Assembly (NCBI GenBank): GCA_947500755.1
Contig: CANMTO010000001.1
Location: 62,001 to 126,000 of the forward strand
Length of the DNA stretch: 64,000 bases
Reading direction: 5' to 3'
Origin: Flavobacteriales bacterium
GTDB taxonomy: Bacteria > Bacteroidota > Bacteroidia > Flavobacteriales_D > Crocinitomicaceae
Part shown: positions 53,802 to 62,116 of the stretch, piece by piece
How positions within the stretch are numbered: the first letter of the stretch is position 1
Layout: each line of letters opens with the position of its first letter
Program-made: the position numbers and the translations under genes
Notes under the pieces: generated by a model
What the model saw: only the letters and a program-made list of their open reading frames with translations
Database searches by the model: none
Told to the model about the DNA's origin: nothing

Positions 53802-54536
53802 TTATAATCTATTCCATTTTGCGACTAAAATCCCGCAGGCAACTGCAGCATTTAACGATTCAGCCCCGCCAAATCGTGGGATTGAAATGTGTTGGGTGAG
53901 GTACGGGATTAGGTCAGGAGACATCCCATTTGCTTCATTTCCGATTACTAATATGCTATCCGTTTCCATCGTCATCTCTTGAATAGTAGTGCCATCCATC
54001 ATAGCGCCGTAGATTGGCAATGTGCTCGTCTTTAGGAATTCACTTAAGTTGGTATAGCTTACTGAAACTCGAAATATACTACCCATGCTAGCCTGGATGG
54101 TCTTGGAGTTGAAACAATCCACGGTTTGTTCTGAGGCAACAATATCCTGAATACCAAACCAATCCGCAATACGTATTATGGTACCTAAATTACCAGGATC
54201 TTGAATATTATCAAGACAAATCAGACGCTTGGCAGTAATGGGTGCAGTGAGCCTAGGATAACGAAGCACGGCTAATACATAGGATGCATTCTTAAACGTC
54301 GAGATTCGCTGTAGTTCTTTGGGTGAACATGACTTGATCGGACACGATGCGAGCTGCTCAAATTCATCGGGTAGGTTTGAGTCGGTAACGATCATGACCA
54401 ACTCAAAACGCTCCTGGTGCAAGCATTCTGTTACCAATTTCCGACCTTCTACGATAAAACAACCTTCCGCTTTTCTCGCTGATTTATCATGCAGTGAACG
54501 AATCCACTTAATATCTGTTGAAGTAAGCTTTTCCAT
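53802..54536 (-). CDS. SpoU/TrmH-family RNA 2'-O-methyltransferase
   Basis: A 244-residue SPOUT enzyme that methylates ribose in tRNA or rRNA using SAM. An N-terminal substrate-binding domain (AEGCFIVEGRKLVTECL) precedes the knot fold with motif 1 NIQDPGNLGTIIRIADWFG, motif 2 LVIGNEANGMSPDLI and motif 3 IPRFGGAESLNAAVACGILV. The exact target is not evident. It is divergent from tamL with a 29-base spacer, a pairing found in many Flavobacteriales. Confidence 0.93.
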   Translation of the reverse strand: MEKLTSTDIKWIRSLHDKSARKAEGCFIVEGRKLVTECLHQERFELVMIVTDSNLPDEFEQLASCPIKSCSPKELQRISTFKNASYVLAVLRYPRLTAPITAKRLICLDNIQDPGNLGTIIRIADWFGIQDIVASEQTVDCFNSKTIQASMGSIFRVSVSYTNLSEFLKTSTLPIYGAMMDGTTIQEMTMETDSILVIGNEANGMSPDLIPYLTQHISIPRFGGAESLNAAVACGILVAKWNRL

Positions 54537-54549
54537 TGCTTGAAATTCT

Positions 54550-54557
54550 TAATTTTG
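54550..54557 (+). promoter_or_regulatory. -7 promoter box (TAATTTTG) for tamL
   Basis: Exact TAnnTTTG match eight bases before the ATG at 54566; the leader would be only about three bases. Confidence 0.5.
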
Positions 54558-54565
54558 TAGGACCC

Positions 54566-57310
54566 ATGCTAAATAAATTCTTTTTTTCTTGCTGTTTTTT
54601 GGCTGTGCTATTCAGTTGTCAGATTTCCAAAAATGTCCCCAAGGGATTTTATTTATTGCAAGATAACGCGGTGAAATTACAAAAAAGCGGGGGAACCCTC
54701 ACAACGGCTGATTTAGAAGGAGTAATTCGCCAGCAACCGAACCAAAAATTAATTGGGATGCCATTTAGGCTCTCCCTTTATAATAGCGTTGATTCCGCGA
54801 AGGTGGCATCGAAACGTCAGCGAAAAAATGAAGAGCTGCTGGCTAAGAATCAGGAGAATATAGACAACATGAGTCGGATCAACCAAAAGCGAATGAATAG
54901 GGCTAGGGAGAAGGGGCGTGATTATTACACTGAAAAGATTATTCCGATGAAAGATCTAGAGCATCCTCGTAGATTTTTTCGCGAGTGGTTGAAATTCAAA
55001 TACGGTGAAAAACCAGTAATTTTTGATACCAATTTGTATGTTAAGTCTATCGAGCAACTCGGGATTTTATTGCGAAAAAAAGGATACTATGAAGCGTTGG
55101 TTGAAGCTGAAATTTACAAGGACTATCGAAAACGAACAACGACCGTAATCTATCTTGTGAATGCAGGAAAACCCTATATCATTGATTCGATTTATTTGAA
55201 AGGACCCAGCAAGGTAACCAGTCTTTACAATTCGTTCATAAATCGTCAAGTTAAGGCAAATGGTGAGCACCCCTTGTTGAATAATACACTTGATGAAGAT
55301 ATGCTGAAAACCCATAGTGAATTGGTTGCTCGAGAAATGAGAGACATGGCCTTGTTTGGATTTACAAATTCAAATATTCGGTTCTTAGCGGATACCAATG
55401 CACTAAAAAAGACGGTAACCTTGGGACTTGAGTTTTTACCACGACGTATAGCTCACGGTAGTATTTCTGATAGCTTCGTTACCGTTGCATTCAAAGATTA
55501 TTATGTAAACAAAGTCATCTTTCATTTAAGTGATACCAATCGAATCGATATACCATTCAAGACTTATCTAACTCAAAAGAATGTCAATTCCTCTAAAGAT
55601 GCATTAGAATCTTCCTTCTTGGCTACCACGGAGGAATATGAATACAGAAAGTTAACCTGTGATAAAAATGCCATTAAACGATTTAAGCTGACGAAACATG
55701 ATTTAAATCCATTTCGAATGGTTGATGTCTATTTCAATGGTGACAAACCCAGTGTAAAACCCCATTTGTTAGAGCTTCAAAATTACTTGGAACCTACCAA
55801 TTATTTCAAGGATAAGTATCTAGAAAGAAGTTATCAGTTTTTAAGTCAATTGAATCTTTTTACTACGATTAAGCCTGTATTTTATGAAGTTCCTGGTAAA
55901 AATCAGGTGAATGTTCATTATTTTTTGGTTCCCAAAAAGAAACAATCCTTTTCCTTTGAGCCCCGCTTTACTTCTTCCTTTGGTTTATTAGGAGTGAATG
56001 CTTCGATGAATTACGTCAACAATAATGTGTTTCGAGGTGGGGAGAAGTTTACGTTTACGCTTGGAGGGGGGTTTGAATCTCAACCGATTGTATTCGATGA
56101 TGGTACAACCGGTGGAAGAGCATTTAATACCCTAGAGTTCGGTCCCAACATTAAAATAGAAATTCCTGGCCTTTTTCCGACTCCTGTATGGTTGTTATCG
56201 AAACGTCAAAAGCCGATTACAGTAATTGGCGCAGGATTGAATTTCGAACGACGTGATATTTTTTCTAGACGCGTATTACAAATGAATTATACATGGCGTT
56301 GGAAGGTCGATAAAACCCAAGTATTTACCTTTGGATTGCCTTTTGCATCAACTATAAAGTTTGTTCAATTCGACAATTCAGATGCCTTTCAGAATCAAAT
56401 TAACACCTTGAGCGATTTATTTTTGAGAAATTCATACAGCAATCAGCTAATTTGGGAGGATTTTAAATTTCAATTTGAATTTTCCAATGTTAATAAGGAT
56501 TTTGTTGCGGATGAAGGACATTCTTCCCGCTTAACGAACATGGATATTAACTTGACCAGTTCAATTTCACTCGCAGGAAACACCCTTGCCTTTCTAACAA
56601 AGAACGCGGATACCATTAGTGGAGGGCAACATACATTTTATGGCAATGTCTTTGCTGAATTTATCCGAAATGATAATCAATTGATTTTAACGAAGCGCTT
56701 TAACTCATCAGTGCAGCTGGCTGGAAAGTTCATGGCAGGGTTTGGTTTACCTTACGGCAATTCAACCACTTCTATGCCTTATGATTATAGTTTTTTTGCT
56801 GGAGGAGCCAACGATAACCGCGGATGGAAGGCAAGGATGCTAGGGCCGGGAAGGTATAAAAGTTATTTGGATTCAACCGGAACGGCAACTCAAATAGGGG
56901 ATATCCGCATCGGAGGTTCAATTGAGTTTCGATTTTCTATGAGTAAAATGTTGAAATCGGTTCTTTTTGCTGATTTTGGAAATATTTGGACAACAAAAGA
57001 TGATGACAACCGCGTGGGAGCTACCTTTTCAACGGATTTTTATAAACAGTTAGCACTTTCCATTGGTACGGGCTTACGCATTGATTTGGGATTTTTCCTT
57101 GTGCGTTTTGACCTAGGATTCCCAATGTGTAATCCTGCGCTACCAGATAAGGCGCGTTGGGTTTTTCAAAGTCGAAATTCATACTACCTCGAAGGTGCTG
57201 AGTATTATGGCATTACCGGGACACTAGAAGAGCAATTAATCGGTGGTAAAGAAAAATTACCAAGACCCTTCTTGCCATCTTTGAATTTTGGCATTGGCCT
57301 TCCATTCTAA
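54566..57310 (+). CDS. tamL: TamL-type BamA/TamA-family outer-membrane lipoprotein
   Basis: A 914-residue Omp85-family protein. The lipobox AVLFSC places the acyl-cysteine at residue 18, as in the Bacteroidota TamL form of TamA. Residues about 100-420 hold POTRA-like repeats (IEQLGILLRKKGYYEALVEAEI, RSYQFLSQLNLFTTIKPVFYEV), and about 440-914 form the 16-strand barrel, including YDYSFFAGGANDNRGWKAR, the lid-lock region of Omp85 proteins, and IRIGGSIEFRFSM. It should act with TamB in outer-membrane homeostasis. The ATG at 54566 is chosen; an extension to 54536 would precede the promoter box. Confidence 0.88.
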   Translation: MLNKFFFSCCFLAVLFSCQISKNVPKGFYLLQDNAVKLQKSGGTLTTADLEGVIRQQPNQKLIGMPFRLSLYNSVDSAKVASKRQRKNEELLAKNQENIDNMSRINQKRMNRAREKGRDYYTEKIIPMKDLEHPRRFFREWLKFKYGEKPVIFDTNLYVKSIEQLGILLRKKGYYEALVEAEIYKDYRKRTTTVIYLVNAGKPYIIDSIYLKGPSKVTSLYNSFINRQVKANGEHPLLNNTLDEDMLKTHSELVAREMRDMALFGFTNSNIRFLADTNALKKTVTLGLEFLPRRIAHGSISDSFVTVAFKDYYVNKVIFHLSDTNRIDIPFKTYLTQKNVNSSKDALESSFLATTEEYEYRKLTCDKNAIKRFKLTKHDLNPFRMVDVYFNGDKPSVKPHLLELQNYLEPTNYFKDKYLERSYQFLSQLNLFTTIKPVFYEVPGKNQVNVHYFLVPKKKQSFSFEPRFTSSFGLLGVNASMNYVNNNVFRGGEKFTFTLGGGFESQPIVFDDGTTGGRAFNTLEFGPNIKIEIPGLFPTPVWLLSKRQKPITVIGAGLNFERRDIFSRRVLQMNYTWRWKVDKTQVFTFGLPFASTIKFVQFDNSDAFQNQINTLSDLFLRNSYSNQLIWEDFKFQFEFSNVNKDFVADEGHSSRLTNMDINLTSSISLAGNTLAFLTKNADTISGGQHTFYGNVFAEFIRNDNQLILTKRFNSSVQLAGKFMAGFGLPYGNSTTSMPYDYSFFAGGANDNRGWKARMLGPGRYKSYLDSTGTATQIGDIRIGGSIEFRFSMSKMLKSVLFADFGNIWTTKDDDNRVGATFSTDFYKQLALSIGTGLRIDLGFFLVRFDLGFPMCNPALPDKARWVFQSRNSYYLEGAEYYGITGTLEEQLIGGKEKLPRPFLPSLNFGIGLPF

Positions 57311-57320
57311 CACATTGAAT

Positions 57321-58931
57321 ATGAAATATGCTTGGTTTGTTTTGATTTTCCTTGTCAGCTTCGCATGCATGAAAGGTAAGAAGGTCGATTTAATTGTACA
57401 TAATGCAAAAATTCATTGCATGGATGATCAGAATACCATTGAGGACGCCATGGCAATTCGGGATGGCATCATTGTAGAGGTGGGTCCGGAACGACAAATA
57501 TTGAATAAGTATTATGCAGATCAAGAAGTGGATGCAAAACAGAAAGGTATTTATCCCGGTTTTACCGACGCTCATACGCACATGTTTTCTTTGGCGAAAC
57601 AAAACTTAGGAGTGGATTTAACCGATTGTAAGTCTATGGAGGAGGTGGTTAATCGAATTAAGGCCTATCTAACGCTAAACAAACGCACATTTGTCATCGG
57701 AAGAGGGTGGGACCAAACGCGTTGGAAAGACGACCAGATGCCAACCAAGGAAATAATTTCTAAGGCCTTTCCAACAATTCCCGTGGCGCTATATCGGATT
57801 GATGGCCATGCATTGTTGGTCAATGAAGCCTTACTAACTGCCTTAGATCAGGTCAAAACATTACTATTAAACGGCCCTTTTGAAACAGGTTTGTTCATCG
57901 ATAAAGACATGTCGATTCCTGAAGCGAAAATGCAGGATTTTTCGTCCTCAGAATACCAGCAAGAATTGCTTGAAATTCAGCGTAAACTTTTTGCATTTGG
58001 GGTTACTGGTGTACATGAAGCAGGACTGATGCGCTGGCAAGTAGCACTCCTTAAGCAAATGGTGCAGCAAGATAAACTATCCTTGGACATCTATGGCATG
58101 CTTACCGCGAATGAAGAGAATTATCAATATGCCAAAAAGCACGGTCACATGGTCTATAAAAATTTAAGCATTCGCAGTTTTAAACTGTATATGGATGGTG
58201 CCTTGGGTTCGCGTGGTGCACTATTAAAAGCCCCTTATGCGGACATGAAAAGCTTTTCGGGACAACAACTGACCAGTAACGATGCATTGTCAATGTGGAT
58301 TGAGCGATCGTTAGCATTAGACTACCAACTCAACACCCATGCCATTGGAGATCAGGGAAATCAACTGGTGTTGAATGCGTACAAGCGCGCCTTTGAGCAA
58401 AATCCGGATCACCGATGGAGGATAGAGCATGCACAGGTGGTTGACCCTTCGGATATGCATCTGTTTGGAACCTATGCAGTTTTTCCTTCCGTGCAACCAA
58501 CACATGCTACTTCTGATCATGATTGGGCAGAACGTCGCTTAGGCAAAGAACGGTTAAAGGGAGCTTACGCGTATCAATCGTTGTACAATCAATTTGGAAT
58601 GTTGGCCTTAGGTACAGATTTCCCGGTAGAACAAATAAATCCTTTTCTAACACTAAGGGCTGCAGTGCTTCGTGTTAATTCGGAAAATAAGCCGATAAAT
58701 GGGTATTTAGTGAAGGAAGCATTGGATTTAAATACAAGCTTGAAAGGAATGACGATTTGGCCGCAATTCGCAGCATTCAGCGAAACAAAACGCGGAATGC
58801 TCATTCAGGGAATGGAGGCTACGTTTTTTATCTGTGAGAAGCCAATTACAGAGAATAACATTCCAGAAAATAACCGATCAGTGGCTACCTACGTTAGAGG
58901 ATTGCTACGCTTTGATTCAGCGGCTTATTAG
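57321..58931 (+). CDS. lipoprotein amidohydrolase, YtcJ-like (amidohydrolase family 3)
   Basis: A 536-residue metal-dependent hydrolase with a lipoprotein signal (VLIFLVSFAC, Cys16). Metal-site motifs: GFTDAHTHM, the carbamylated-lysine region near RSFKLYMDGALGSRGA, NTHAIGDQGNQLV, RIEHAQVV and LALGTDFPVEQINPF. The substrate is unknown; family members act on amide bonds of small molecules. It starts 10 bases after tamL, so it is probably co-transcribed. Its stop overlaps the convergent PorP/SprF gene by four bases. Confidence 0.93.
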   Translation: MKYAWFVLIFLVSFACMKGKKVDLIVHNAKIHCMDDQNTIEDAMAIRDGIIVEVGPERQILNKYYADQEVDAKQKGIYPGFTDAHTHMFSLAKQNLGVDLTDCKSMEEVVNRIKAYLTLNKRTFVIGRGWDQTRWKDDQMPTKEIISKAFPTIPVALYRIDGHALLVNEALLTALDQVKTLLLNGPFETGLFIDKDMSIPEAKMQDFSSSEYQQELLEIQRKLFAFGVTGVHEAGLMRWQVALLKQMVQQDKLSLDIYGMLTANEENYQYAKKHGHMVYKNLSIRSFKLYMDGALGSRGALLKAPYADMKSFSGQQLTSNDALSMWIERSLALDYQLNTHAIGDQGNQLVLNAYKRAFEQNPDHRWRIEHAQVVDPSDMHLFGTYAVFPSVQPTHATSDHDWAERRLGKERLKGAYAYQSLYNQFGMLALGTDFPVEQINPFLTLRAAVLRVNSENKPINGYLVKEALDLNTSLKGMTIWPQFAAFSETKRGMLIQGMEATFFICEKPITENNIPENNRSVATYVRGLLRFDSAAY

Positions 58932-59893
58932 AACGAAGGACAGCTAATTTTTCTAAAGTTCTTCGGTTTCTTTTTACATGCAAAGTTAAATCCTAAGGAA
59001 ACTTCATGGGAACCACCAGAAACTCCGTTGCCAAGTTTTGATACCGTTATATCGTAAGAATATCCTACCTTAAATTTAGGGGTTGAAATGCCTAAGCATA
59101 AAATAAATGCATCTCGATTTCTATACCAAACACCGGCCGTAAAGTTTTCATATTTGATGTATGTACCAATGTTTAACTCTTGAAAGCCGTTTTGGTATTG
59201 ATAGATGATATTTGGCATGATGGAGGTTGAGTTAGAAAATTTGTTTCTACCCAATTTTATGTTCGCCCCGGCATGTCCTGTAAATCGCATGGGAAGTTTA
59301 CTTGTTCCTAAAATCATTGATTCATCTGGAGTATTCAAGTGGTGAATCGCACCACCGAAGTAAAAAATATCCGTGTAACCTACGAAACCAGCAGAAGCAT
59401 CAAAATAACCCCGTCTTCCATTTCCGCGAGGAACATCTCCCGTTTGATAAATGAACCCACGACGTGGATCAATCATGTCGCCAAACGTTAATTTACTCCA
59501 ATCTAAGTATTTTTGATAATAGGCTGCTCTTGCTCCAAACATCATCGAAAACTTACGGTTTACACGCAGGTTGTAGGAATAGATGGCACCTACCATCGTT
59601 GTGGAAATCGTTCCACGTCCTTGCTGGTCATGCGTCGCAATAAACCCAAGTCCACCAGAGATGCTTTTAACATAGCTGTCGTAAGCCAAACTGTAGGTTA
59701 TGTAGTTACCGGTTAGCTGCGGCCATTCATTTCTGTAGTTCATGGAAACACGCGGACATCCAGTTGAACCTGCAAGGGCAGGATTCAAATAAATCGGGTT
59801 CGAATAGAACTGAGTAAAGGTTGGATCTTGCGCCATAACGTCCACAGAAACAACAGAAAGCAAGGCCAAAAAGATGATTTTTTTCATGTTCAT
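58928..59893 (-). CDS. PorP/SprF-family type IX secretion membrane protein
   Basis: A 321-residue outer-membrane beta-barrel with a signal peptide (MNMKKIIFLALLSVVSVDVMA). PTFTQFYSNPIYLNPALAGSTGCPRVSMNYRNEWP at about 24-58 is the PorP/SprF hallmark, and KVGYSYDITVSKLGNGVSGGSHEVSLGFNF is the family's end. PorP/SprF proteins serve the secretion or surface attachment of type B cargo such as the protein at 43949. It follows the anti-sigma/barrel fusion by two bases and also has its own exact promoter box in the end of that gene. Confidence 0.95.
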   Translation of the reverse strand: MNMKKIIFLALLSVVSVDVMAQDPTFTQFYSNPIYLNPALAGSTGCPRVSMNYRNEWPQLTGNYITYSLAYDSYVKSISGGLGFIATHDQQGRGTISTTMVGAIYSYNLRVNRKFSMMFGARAAYYQKYLDWSKLTFGDMIDPRRGFIYQTGDVPRGNGRRGYFDASAGFVGYTDIFYFGGAIHHLNTPDESMILGTSKLPMRFTGHAGANIKLGRNKFSNSTSIMPNIIYQYQNGFQELNIGTYIKYENFTAGVWYRNRDAFILCLGISTPKFKVGYSYDITVSKLGNGVSGGSHEVSLGFNFACKKKPKNFRKISCPSF

Positions 59894-59895
59894 AG

Positions 59896-61557
59896 TTACA
59901 AATATAAATAACGTCTTGTTTTTCGACTAATATTAGTATTAAATCTTACGACTAATTGATGCATAAATTGCGGTTCAATGCTTGTTAATGGCTTTGTTTT
60001 AAAGCTTTGCGCCATTATTGAAAAGTTTTTTGATTGGTATCCTAATAATGCCCCAACTGAGGAATTTGAGCCATAATTACCCCCAAGTACCAGATTACCG
60101 AGTTGAAGACTTGCCCCAAGTTGGGTGAATTGCGCGCCTTGAACGATGGAATGAGAAAGCATAGGGGAAAACATGATTTTACCTTTTTTCGCAGAAAAAT
60201 CTGTTCCAATGTAAAGGTTGGTTTGTTGCTGCGATCTGTCGATGGTATCAAATTTATTCGTGTGGATGTTGTCCTGATGCCTAAGGATGTTTTGAGTGTT
60301 CATCCCAACAAAAATAGGTCCTAAATTCATGTTTACGCCAGCATTTAAATCTCGGTAATACAAGGCGTTTCCAATGGGTTTATTCAGGTCATAATTGAAT
60401 TGCTGTAATTGATTGCTGTGGTATTCAAAGGTAGAATGATTGATGGCTTTTGATGAATTAATTGATTTCTGACCCACTACATACGAAATTGAAGGCTCAA
60501 TCAATATGAATCTACCAAGTGCTACTTTCGGCGAATAAATCAATCGTACATTCCAATCTTGAATGGTATTATTCCCGAAATCCGAGTAGTTTGCAAGAAC
60601 TCCGAATCCGCTTCGTAGATTTCTGGAATATCCATCAACCGAAATTTGTTGACTAAGTTTTTGGTTTCCTGTACCAATCCAGCGTGCAGTGCTCATGGTT
60701 TGAAAACGGGTTTGCGATCGATTGCCTACAAATGCCTCAGCAATGTCTAGATGACTTTTTTCCTGTATTACAAAAACACGGTCTTTAAGCGTAGCGCTGC
60801 TAGTTTCTTTTCTGAGATACTTCCCTAAGAGGGAGTTTTTACTTAGATGCAAAGAAGGAAGGGTAATTTTACTTCTTCGTTTAATCTCCTGCTTGGATGT
60901 GGTTTCTTGAACCCCAAGAATCTGGGTATTAGTATGAATGATTAAATTCGATTTAGGGATGTTTAGTCCAATGCTTTCGATGCGATTCAATGTTAAAGGA
61001 TCCTTTGCCAACAAGGCAAAACCTTGATTCGGCTCCAAAAACGCTGGGTTTGAATTATAATTGTTCGAACGATGTAACTTTTTCGTCAAGGGATTAGAAT
61101 TTGGCCTGTATTGATGATTCGAAGAATTGGCTCGGGCATACGAACCATGTGAACTTTTGTTACGAGGCTGAATGGTTTGAACCATTCTGGGAAAATCCTT
61201 ATTCGAAATGCGTTGTTTTTGAGCCTGTTTATTCGATGTAGCATTGAATGAATTACCAAGATATACAAAACTGAAAATCAACATGACGGTGGTTGTAGCG
61301 GAAAGCAACCAGAAACCAAGGCGACGTTTTTTGTCTTTTTCGGGTTCTTCCTTTACACCAAAATTGAAGGAAGAGACCATTTCTGAATCGATGGGCGGAA
61401 AAGTTACTCGTGATTTTTCCCAAGCCTCTAAGTCTGCTTCGTATTCCGGATTGAGTAAAAGGAAAATCCGTAATTCTTGTTCCTTCGACTCAGAAAGATT
61501 ACCTTCGATTAAATCGAATAGCCATTGATCAATATTTTCGTGGTTTGGAGTATTCAA
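59896..61557 (-). CDS. fusion of an anti-sigma-like domain, a membrane helix and a PorP/SprF-like beta-barrel
   Basis: A 553-residue protein with three parts. Residues 1-78 are acidic and helical (IDQWLFDLIEGNLSESKEQE, LNPEYEADLEAWEKS), like the cytoplasmic end of Bacteroidota anti-sigma factors. One membrane helix follows (about 83-103, FWLLSATTTVMLIFSFVYLG). Residues 105-290 are a Ser/Asn/Lys-rich linker. Residues 300-553 are beta-rich and align with the neighbouring PorP/SprF (YYRDLNAGVNMNLGPIFVGM, TNLYIGTDFSAKKGKIMFSP, LVLGGNYGSNSSVGALLGYQ). The TTG start at 61557 overlaps the sigma factor stop as TTGA. It would span both membranes and hold or release the sigma factor. Confidence 0.82.
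   Translation of the reverse strand: MNTPNHENIDQWLFDLIEGNLSESKEQELRIFLLLNPEYEADLEAWEKSRVTFPPIDSEMVSSFNFGVKEEPEKDKKRRLGFWLLSATTTVMLIFSFVYLGNSFNATSNKQAQKQRISNKDFPRMVQTIQPRNKSSHGSYARANSSNHQYRPNSNPLTKKLHRSNNYNSNPAFLEPNQGFALLAKDPLTLNRIESIGLNIPKSNLIIHTNTQILGVQETTSKQEIKRRSKITLPSLHLSKNSLLGKYLRKETSSATLKDRVFVIQEKSHLDIAEAFVGNRSQTRFQTMSTARWIGTGNQKLSQQISVDGYSRNLRSGFGVLANYSDFGNNTIQDWNVRLIYSPKVALGRFILIEPSISYVVGQKSINSSKAINHSTFEYHSNQLQQFNYDLNKPIGNALYYRDLNAGVNMNLGPIFVGMNTQNILRHQDNIHTNKFDTIDRSQQQTNLYIGTDFSAKKGKIMFSPMLSHSIVQGAQFTQLGASLQLGNLVLGGNYGSNSSVGALLGYQSKNFSIMAQSFKTKPLTSIEPQFMHQLVVRFNTNISRKTRRYLYL
59899..59906 (-). promoter_or_regulatory. -7 promoter box (TATATTTG) for the PorP/SprF gene
   Basis: Exact TAnnTTTG match on the minus strand, five bases before the ATG at 59893; it lies inside the last codons of the upstream fusion gene. 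Predicts a second, leaderless transcript for PorP/SprF. Confidence 0.5.
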
Positions 61558-62042
61558 GCGAAATAATGAACGATTTTTAACTGATTCTTTACCTTTCCCC
61601 TTGCGCGAAACAAGTACACTTTTACTTGAGACGGATTTAGATTCAGCATGTCTCCAATTTCTTCATAGGAGTAGCCCTCTAAATCACGCATCAACAAAAT
61701 GCTCTTTTGCAAAGGGGGTAACATACCGACCGTTTGTTCAATGATTTCGTTACTTTCAAATTCAAAAGAATCCACTTGGGCGTTCCCTTGAAGATGGATA
61801 GATTGCATGTAGTCAATGCGCGCTCTTCGTTTAATGAAGTTCAACATCGCATGGTGGGTACATGTAAACAACCAACTTTTAACTTTATCATGATCAATTC
61901 GATCGACATTCACCCAAAGTTTTACGAAAATATCTTGTACGATGTCTTTGGCATCCTCGGAGGATCCCATAAAATTCAGCGCAAACCGATAAAGGCTTAC
62001 TTGATGCGCATGAACCACGTTCGTATAATCACTTTTCTTCAA
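61554..62042 (-). CDS. ECF-family RNA polymerase sigma factor
   Basis: A sigma-70 family protein of about 162 residues. Region 2 is SLYRFALNFMGSSEDAKDIVQDIFVKLWVNVDRID with VKSWLFTCTHHAMLNFIKRR (-10 recognition), and region 4 is MLPPLQKSILLMRDLEGYSYEEIGDMLNLNPSQVKVYLFRARGKV. There is no ATG near the expected start. The TTG at 62042 (reading LKKSDYTNVV) is my choice; the frame is open to a TTG at 62111, but that lies within the promoter box. It is translationally coupled to the fusion gene, which is therefore its likely anti-sigma factor. Confidence 0.9.
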   Translation of the reverse strand: MKKSDYTNVVHAHQVSLYRFALNFMGSSEDAKDIVQDIFVKLWVNVDRIDHDKVKSWLFTCTHHAMLNFIKRRARIDYMQSIHLQGNAQVDSFEFESNEIIEQTVGMLPPLQKSILLMRDLEGYSYEEIGDMLNLNPSQVKVYLFRARGKVKNQLKIVHYFA

Positions 62043-62108
62043 ACTTGCAGTTTCAGTTAAAACAATTCGCTTCAGGTAAAAGTTACAGGAACGTAACCTT
62101 ACCCTAAA

Positions 62109-62116
62109 CAAATATA
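62109..62116 (-). promoter_or_regulatory. -7 promoter box (TATATTTG) for the sigma/anti-sigma/PorP operon
   Basis: Exact TAnnTTTG match on the minus strand, 66 bases upstream of the proposed sigma factor start, giving a leader of about 60 bases. Whether this is a housekeeping or an autoregulated promoter cannot be told. Confidence 0.4.

Follow-up and report, generated by a model that had tools for sequence, protein, structure and literature searches.

Does a single polypeptide connect a cytoplasmic sigma factor to a PorP-type barrel in the outer membrane and, if so, what would such a chain control? The question is raised by a minus-strand locus in the window (the whole stretch of 64,000 nucleotides that was analysed, from a Crocinitomicaceae genome), which consists of an ECF sigma factor gene, a gene for a 553-aa fusion protein and a free PorP/SprF gene. 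All three genes are present, with the following features:

62058-62087, minus strand: predicted ECF promoter of the operon, TGTAAC-N16-TTGTTTTA, consistent with autoregulation (sole exact match in the genome; conserved in relatives)
61554-62042, minus strand: ECF sigma factor, 162 aa, TTG start assigned from relatives and the promoter (Sigma70_r2, 62.7 bits; Sigma70_r4_2, 59.6 bits)
59896-61557, minus strand: fusion protein, 553 aa, with anti-sigma-like domain, membrane helix, tether and PorP-type barrel (TTGA overlap with the sigma gene; AlphaFold2 model and profile alignment)
61408-61557, minus strand: residues 1-50 of the fusion, predicted three-helix N-terminal domain (pLDDT 90-96; best conserved segment, mean identity 0.51)
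61249-61320, minus strand: residues 80-103, predicted membrane helix (AlphaFold2 helix; hydropathy 1.85, above 1.6 in 55 of 62 aligned rows)
60790-61248, minus strand: residues 104-256, predicted disordered, Ser/Asn-rich, Cys-free periplasmic tether (pLDDT mostly below 50; sequence non-conserved)
59899-60789, minus strand: residues 257-553, predicted 14-strand PorP-type outer-membrane barrel (AlphaFold2; hhalign against the free PorP, 99.7%; Foldseek)
58928-59893, minus strand: free PorP/SprF protein, 321 aa, C-terminus ...FRKISCPSF (PF11751, 210.6 bits; TIGR03519, 244.8 bits; 71% identity to the gldJ-linked copy; 14 strands)

The sigma and fusion genes overlap by 4 nt, the TGA stop of the one and the TTG start of the other sharing the sequence TTGA, while the fusion genes of relatives start with GTG or ATG at the equivalent position. 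The arrangement is that of a sigma/anti-sigma pair, as the first-pass annotation had read it, and a sigma gene adjoins the fusion gene in 80/80 named loci. The start of the sigma gene is most likely the TTG at 62042, giving 162 aa, and not the longest-frame start at 62111/62116, because the conserved promoter (62087-62058) falls inside the longer frame and the corresponding TTG is the start codon in relatives. About 15 nt separate the end of the -10 element from 62042, and the leader of the sigma mRNA would be very short in the genus. The nearest named model to the sigma factor is NF058625, with a score of 126.4 bits against a cut-off of 130. Elsewhere in the window, at 54536-57310, lies a protein of 924 aa that starts like a lipoprotein, has a barrel-like C-terminus and is reminiscent of TamL.

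An AlphaFold2 model of the fusion protein, built on 62 aligned proteins, predicts a single chain running from the cytoplasm to the outer membrane, as had been proposed, and made up of an N-terminal domain, one membrane helix, a tether and a barrel. The N-terminal domain is formed by helices at residues 9-18, 23-35 and 37-49 (pLDDT 90-96), and F14, E18-G19-N20-L21 and W46 are invariant among the 62 proteins; no Pfam family was matched by residues 1-79. The tether (about 150 residues, modelled with very low confidence between roughly 107 and 256) has a mean identity of only 0.13 and is half gaps in the same alignment. Despite this non-conserved sequence, the span from W46 to the start of the barrel is kept at 200-341 residues and, at 3.4 A per residue, the tether would be ample for crossing the periplasm. 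The barrel (mean identity 0.35) comprises 14 strands between residues 284 and 540, mostly at pLDDT above 90. Foldseek matches of the fusion included outer-membrane barrels, among them OmpG, FadL and chains of T9SS translocon structures, and sequence searches of the PDB gave no credible relative.

Is this barrel of the PorP type, as the earlier reading, in which it could be aligned with the neighbouring PorP/SprF protein, had supposed? Direct comparison by BLASTP was weak (30% identity over 54 residues), and profile-profile comparison was therefore used. With hhalign, the fusion barrel and the free PorP family aligned with a probability of 99.7 and an E value of 1.6e-26 over 290 collinear columns, covering the whole free PorP from end to end, and the AlphaFold2 models of the two alike show 14 strands. 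In a genome scan the fusion scored 59.3 bits with PF11751 (cut-off 22.3), and a plain Pfam hmmscan of the same protein listed nothing. The free PorP exceeds the cut-offs of both PF11751 and TIGR03519 (T9SS_PorP_fam) and is thus a full member of the PorP/SprF family, from which the fusion barrel differs in that it stays below the TIGR03519 cut-off (54.4 bits against 90.55) and is joined to a signalling module. Across relatives, the fusion barrels often share about 30% identity, as against more than 70% for the free PorPs. The C-terminus of the fusion may thus fairly be read, from sequence profiles and models, as a divergent relative of PorP.

The three-gene order is not a chance arrangement. 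Of 30 loci retrieved in a search among relatives, nearly all within the genus, 25 had the three genes in the order sigma, fusion, PorP, and most of the others were interrupted by contig ends. In 80 named loci, largely from Crocinitomicaceae and including Crocinitomix catalasitica ATCC 23190 and C. algicola, the sigma gene was upstream of the fusion gene in all cases and PorP was downstream wherever there was room for it (65/65). Further families of the same taxonomic order show this arrangement too. Outside the order, one family provided 8 genomes with a sigma gene and a full-length fusion, PorP being next in most of them (its frame is broken in one genome and it was partly recognised in another); a TGTAAC...TTGTT promoter with 15-17 bp spacing was clear in 7 of these 8 and present as a variant in the eighth. 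Beyond these, when 396 genomes of the class were scanned (E 1e-15), there were no full-length fusions among the matches listed, and the module therefore appears to be patchy. The recurrence of the gene order, for which the first-pass annotation had proposed a search, is thus seen both within the order and in a second one.

Two further arrangements were seen in these searches. Loci L044-L047 carry a sigma gene and proteins that have the same N-terminal domain but other C-termini; one such protein weakly matches the zf-HC2 model. Upstream of these loci are TGTAAC sites, each with a -10 sequence after it that resembles TCGTC or CGTC. In six loci of other families (L266, L267, L269, L270, L274 and L279), a PorP-type protein is found close to another, distinct ECF sigma gene and to a single-helix protein of about 230-250 aa with an unfused tail, which in 5 of the 6 carries a conserved MGNEPVFGDMLDSSKGI-like motif; this arrangement is possibly a split version of the fusion idea.

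The upstream sequences suggest what the sigma factor would read. The element TGTAAC-N16-TTGTTNTA precedes the sigma gene in 77 of the 77 named loci with room for it, with a 15-bp spacing in two, and in the window's own genome the operon promoter is its only exact match. When two mismatches were allowed, this genome gave 11 sites, as compared to 20 with a reversed-pattern control, so that single sites are no evidence and conservation across genomes was used instead. Summed over 41 genomes of the genus, the pattern occurred at 103 sites and the reversed pattern at 54. The extra sites that recur lie ahead of a tandem array comprising two to four lipoproteins of about 130 aa, belonging to no Pfam family and detected by protein homology in 38 of the 41 genomes, the seed proteins for this search having first been found through the motif. 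A promoter-type site was present at the arrays in 30/30 inspected loci (27 of them better than all 200 shuffles) and in the other 8 genomes, hence in 38/38. The array of the window's own genome (C68:3600-4357) has a weak site (C68:4493-4522) with two mismatches, alone no better than background and supported through the relatives. In a clade where the operon -10 is TTGTA, the lipoprotein -10 also reads TGTA in 6/6 genomes, which, as a single lineage, count as one event.

The same promoter is also found ahead of PorP genes outside the operon. Genome G058 has no PorP beside its fusion gene, but its second core-type PorP, on another contig, is immediately preceded by the promoter in perfect form. 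G055 likewise has a copy ahead of a further, unlinked PorP. In these cases the link between the sigma factor and PorP does not depend on the order of the genes. The predicted output of the sigma factor is accordingly PorP plus lipoproteins, in keeping with the expectation of a regulon that includes envelope and PorP genes. Among the motif matches inspected, no chaperone or BAM genes were recognised, and the motif was not seen ahead of any other gene of the T9SS machinery. Other matches in the relatives are mixed: some lie before recurrent small barrels, of 224-227 aa in G016, G020 and G022 and of about 300 aa in G002, G015 and G036, and others look like chance. At L058 and in the relatives G007 and G025, a TGTAAC...CTCGTT site with at least 27 identical bases lies before an apparent gene for a very small protein.

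The operon PorP had been suggested to be a paralogue, competitor or target of the fusion. It is 71% identical to a second copy lying between a PorU-like gene and GldJ (neighbours named from sequence), and is better seen as a second copy of this core gldJ/porU-linked PorP, placed under the sigma factor's own promoter, than as a competitor. Each triad genome examined has at least two core-type PorPs, except G045, which gave one partial match, and the operon and gldJ-linked kinds generally occur together. We rejected a reading of the operon PorP as a separate ancient paralogue: in the tree, copies from the operon and copies linked to gldJ are mixed, so that they probably reflect repeated duplication or gene conversion. 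The window's genome possesses a T9SS (SprA, 2336 bits) and 42 type B cargo tails over the cut-off. At least 10 other PorP genes in this genome directly follow a type B cargo gene, while the operon PorP follows the fusion instead and has, unlike most other PorPs of the genome, no type B cargo gene beside it. Core-type PorPs (L004, alignment A4) end in CPSF after the last strand, a sequence invariant in A4, and the cargo-linked PorPs that were inspected lack it.

Taken together, the locus is probably, on balance, an autoregulated module of an ECF sigma factor and a Dma-like dual-membrane anti-sigma factor, in which a PorP-type barrel would serve as the outer-membrane sensor of a homeostatic loop. 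The parts of this reading differ in strength. Very probably, the three helices of the N-terminal domain keep the sigma factor at the inner membrane, and we are equally confident, from the predicted structure, that the disordered tether would cross the periplasm and the 14-strand barrel anchor the chain in the outer membrane. A change in the state of the barrel would then free the sigma factor, which in all likelihood would read the TGTAAC-type promoters of its own operon with the second core PorP, of the lipoprotein array and of the unlinked PorPs of relatives. That the sensor barrel acts as a proxy for PorP, such that demand on T9SS PorP-type barrels, or their failed assembly, leads to more PorP and partner lipoproteins, is an idea on which we are nearly evenly divided, leaning slightly against. 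Homeostasis is nevertheless the most likely logic because sensor and output share a barrel type, and a homeostatic loop for PorP-type barrels seems the most economical reading.

The nature of the signal could be understood in several ways. The barrel may report on assembly: sharing the BAM/chaperone route with PorP, the fusion would be degraded whenever insertion falters and the sigma factor freed, the signal being one of folding and not of cargo. Sensor and output are of the same barrel type, the non-conserved tether is what a passive link should look like, and RseA-type anti-sigma factors are released by proteolysis; however, a general assembly response should include chaperones or BAM genes, none of which was recognised behind the motif matches inspected, and we hold this explanation to be rather unlikely. 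The proposal of the first-pass annotation, that the barrel senses export status or cargo load, is in our view just as doubtful. Here a type B tail or surface lipoprotein would putatively bind the barrel as such ligands bind PorP and SprF, and its occupancy would control sigma release. Type B tails are indeed bound by both proteins, PorP binding PG1035 and SprF binding SprB (PMC9143113), and the position that a cargo gene takes before at least 10 PorPs of this genome is taken by the fusion before the operon PorP. Lipoproteins, moreover, are among the predicted outputs, but the much greater divergence of the fusion barrel (often about 30% identity, against more than 70% for the free PorP) means that cargo-binding features may be lost. 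As the actual signal, assembly failure and cargo occupancy appear about equally possible.

The link to PorP could also be incidental, the PorP-type barrel being a mere anchor of a general envelope or vesicle regulator like Dma1 or Dma2. The fusion does share its domain plan with Dma2, the deletion of which alters vesiculation and polysaccharide genes (PMC13088901), but PorP co-occurs at all 65 loci with room and the promoter follows PorP even where it is unlinked, which makes this improbable. Least probable by far is that there is no functional anti-sigma factor at all, the N-terminal domain being unrelated and the overlap ordinary operon packing. In its favour, residues 1-79 match no Pfam family, but this explanation has to contend with the invariant N-terminal residues, with the sigma gene adjacent in 80/80 loci and with the presence of this N-terminal domain in further proteins that are linked to a sigma gene and end differently, including the one weak zf-HC2 match. 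We prefer the homeostatic loop. Its sensor would be a copy of the barrel under its control, which gives the loop a concrete form; the promoter is defined, and the predicted targets are few, the Pfam-less small lipoproteins among them. Such a loop would bear on how the type IX secretion machine is adjusted to its cargo and on the signals read by Dma anti-sigma factors, and the module is carried by cultured strains, Crocinitomix catalasitica and C. algicola.

Among known systems, PorXY-SigP/PorA of Porphyromonas gingivalis likewise connects a surface signal with T9SS gene control by an ECF sigma factor (PMC7712824), but by way of a two-component system, whereas the fusion is a single transenvelope anti-sigma chain. 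In Flavobacterium psychrophilum, SM6 concerns ECF-type promoters ahead of T9SS genes and an ECF/anti-sigma pair; unlike the fusion operon, it has a CGT box in the -10 and controls several T9SS components, with no PorP-barrel sensor described (PMC9723704). Literature searches in which PorP or SprF was combined with anti-sigma factors yielded no PorP-barrel sensor, although the first Dma paper may have noted PorP-type members. On a bolder reading, which we consider rather unlikely, the fusion would be the first sensor known to span the envelope with a T9SS PorP-type barrel at its end, and would report cargo or PorP occupancy at the outer membrane directly to the sigma factor, in a closed feedback loop for type IX secretion that restocks PorP and its partner lipoproteins.

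The closest likeness is to the Dma family, in which an anti-sigma domain, a membrane helix, a disordered tether and a barrel are encoded beside an ECF21 sigma gene (PMC13088901). Dma1-Dma3 of Bacteroides thetaiotaomicron, with their Das sigma factors, have the same domain plan and adjacent ECF sigma gene as the fusion (PMC13088901), in which the transmembrane helix, the long disordered tether and the C-terminal beta-barrel are all predicted; its three-helix N-terminal domain (pLDDT 90-96), with the sigma gene adjacent in 80/80 loci, would take the anti-sigma role. The first-pass annotation had called such an architecture a predicted one and missed that the dual-membrane plan is already known from experiment in the Dma anti-sigma factors (PMC13088901). 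What seems new, and what sets the fusion apart from Dma, is the PorP type of its 14-strand barrel and the link to PorP, with a free PorP in the operon and a predicted output of PorP and lipoproteins.
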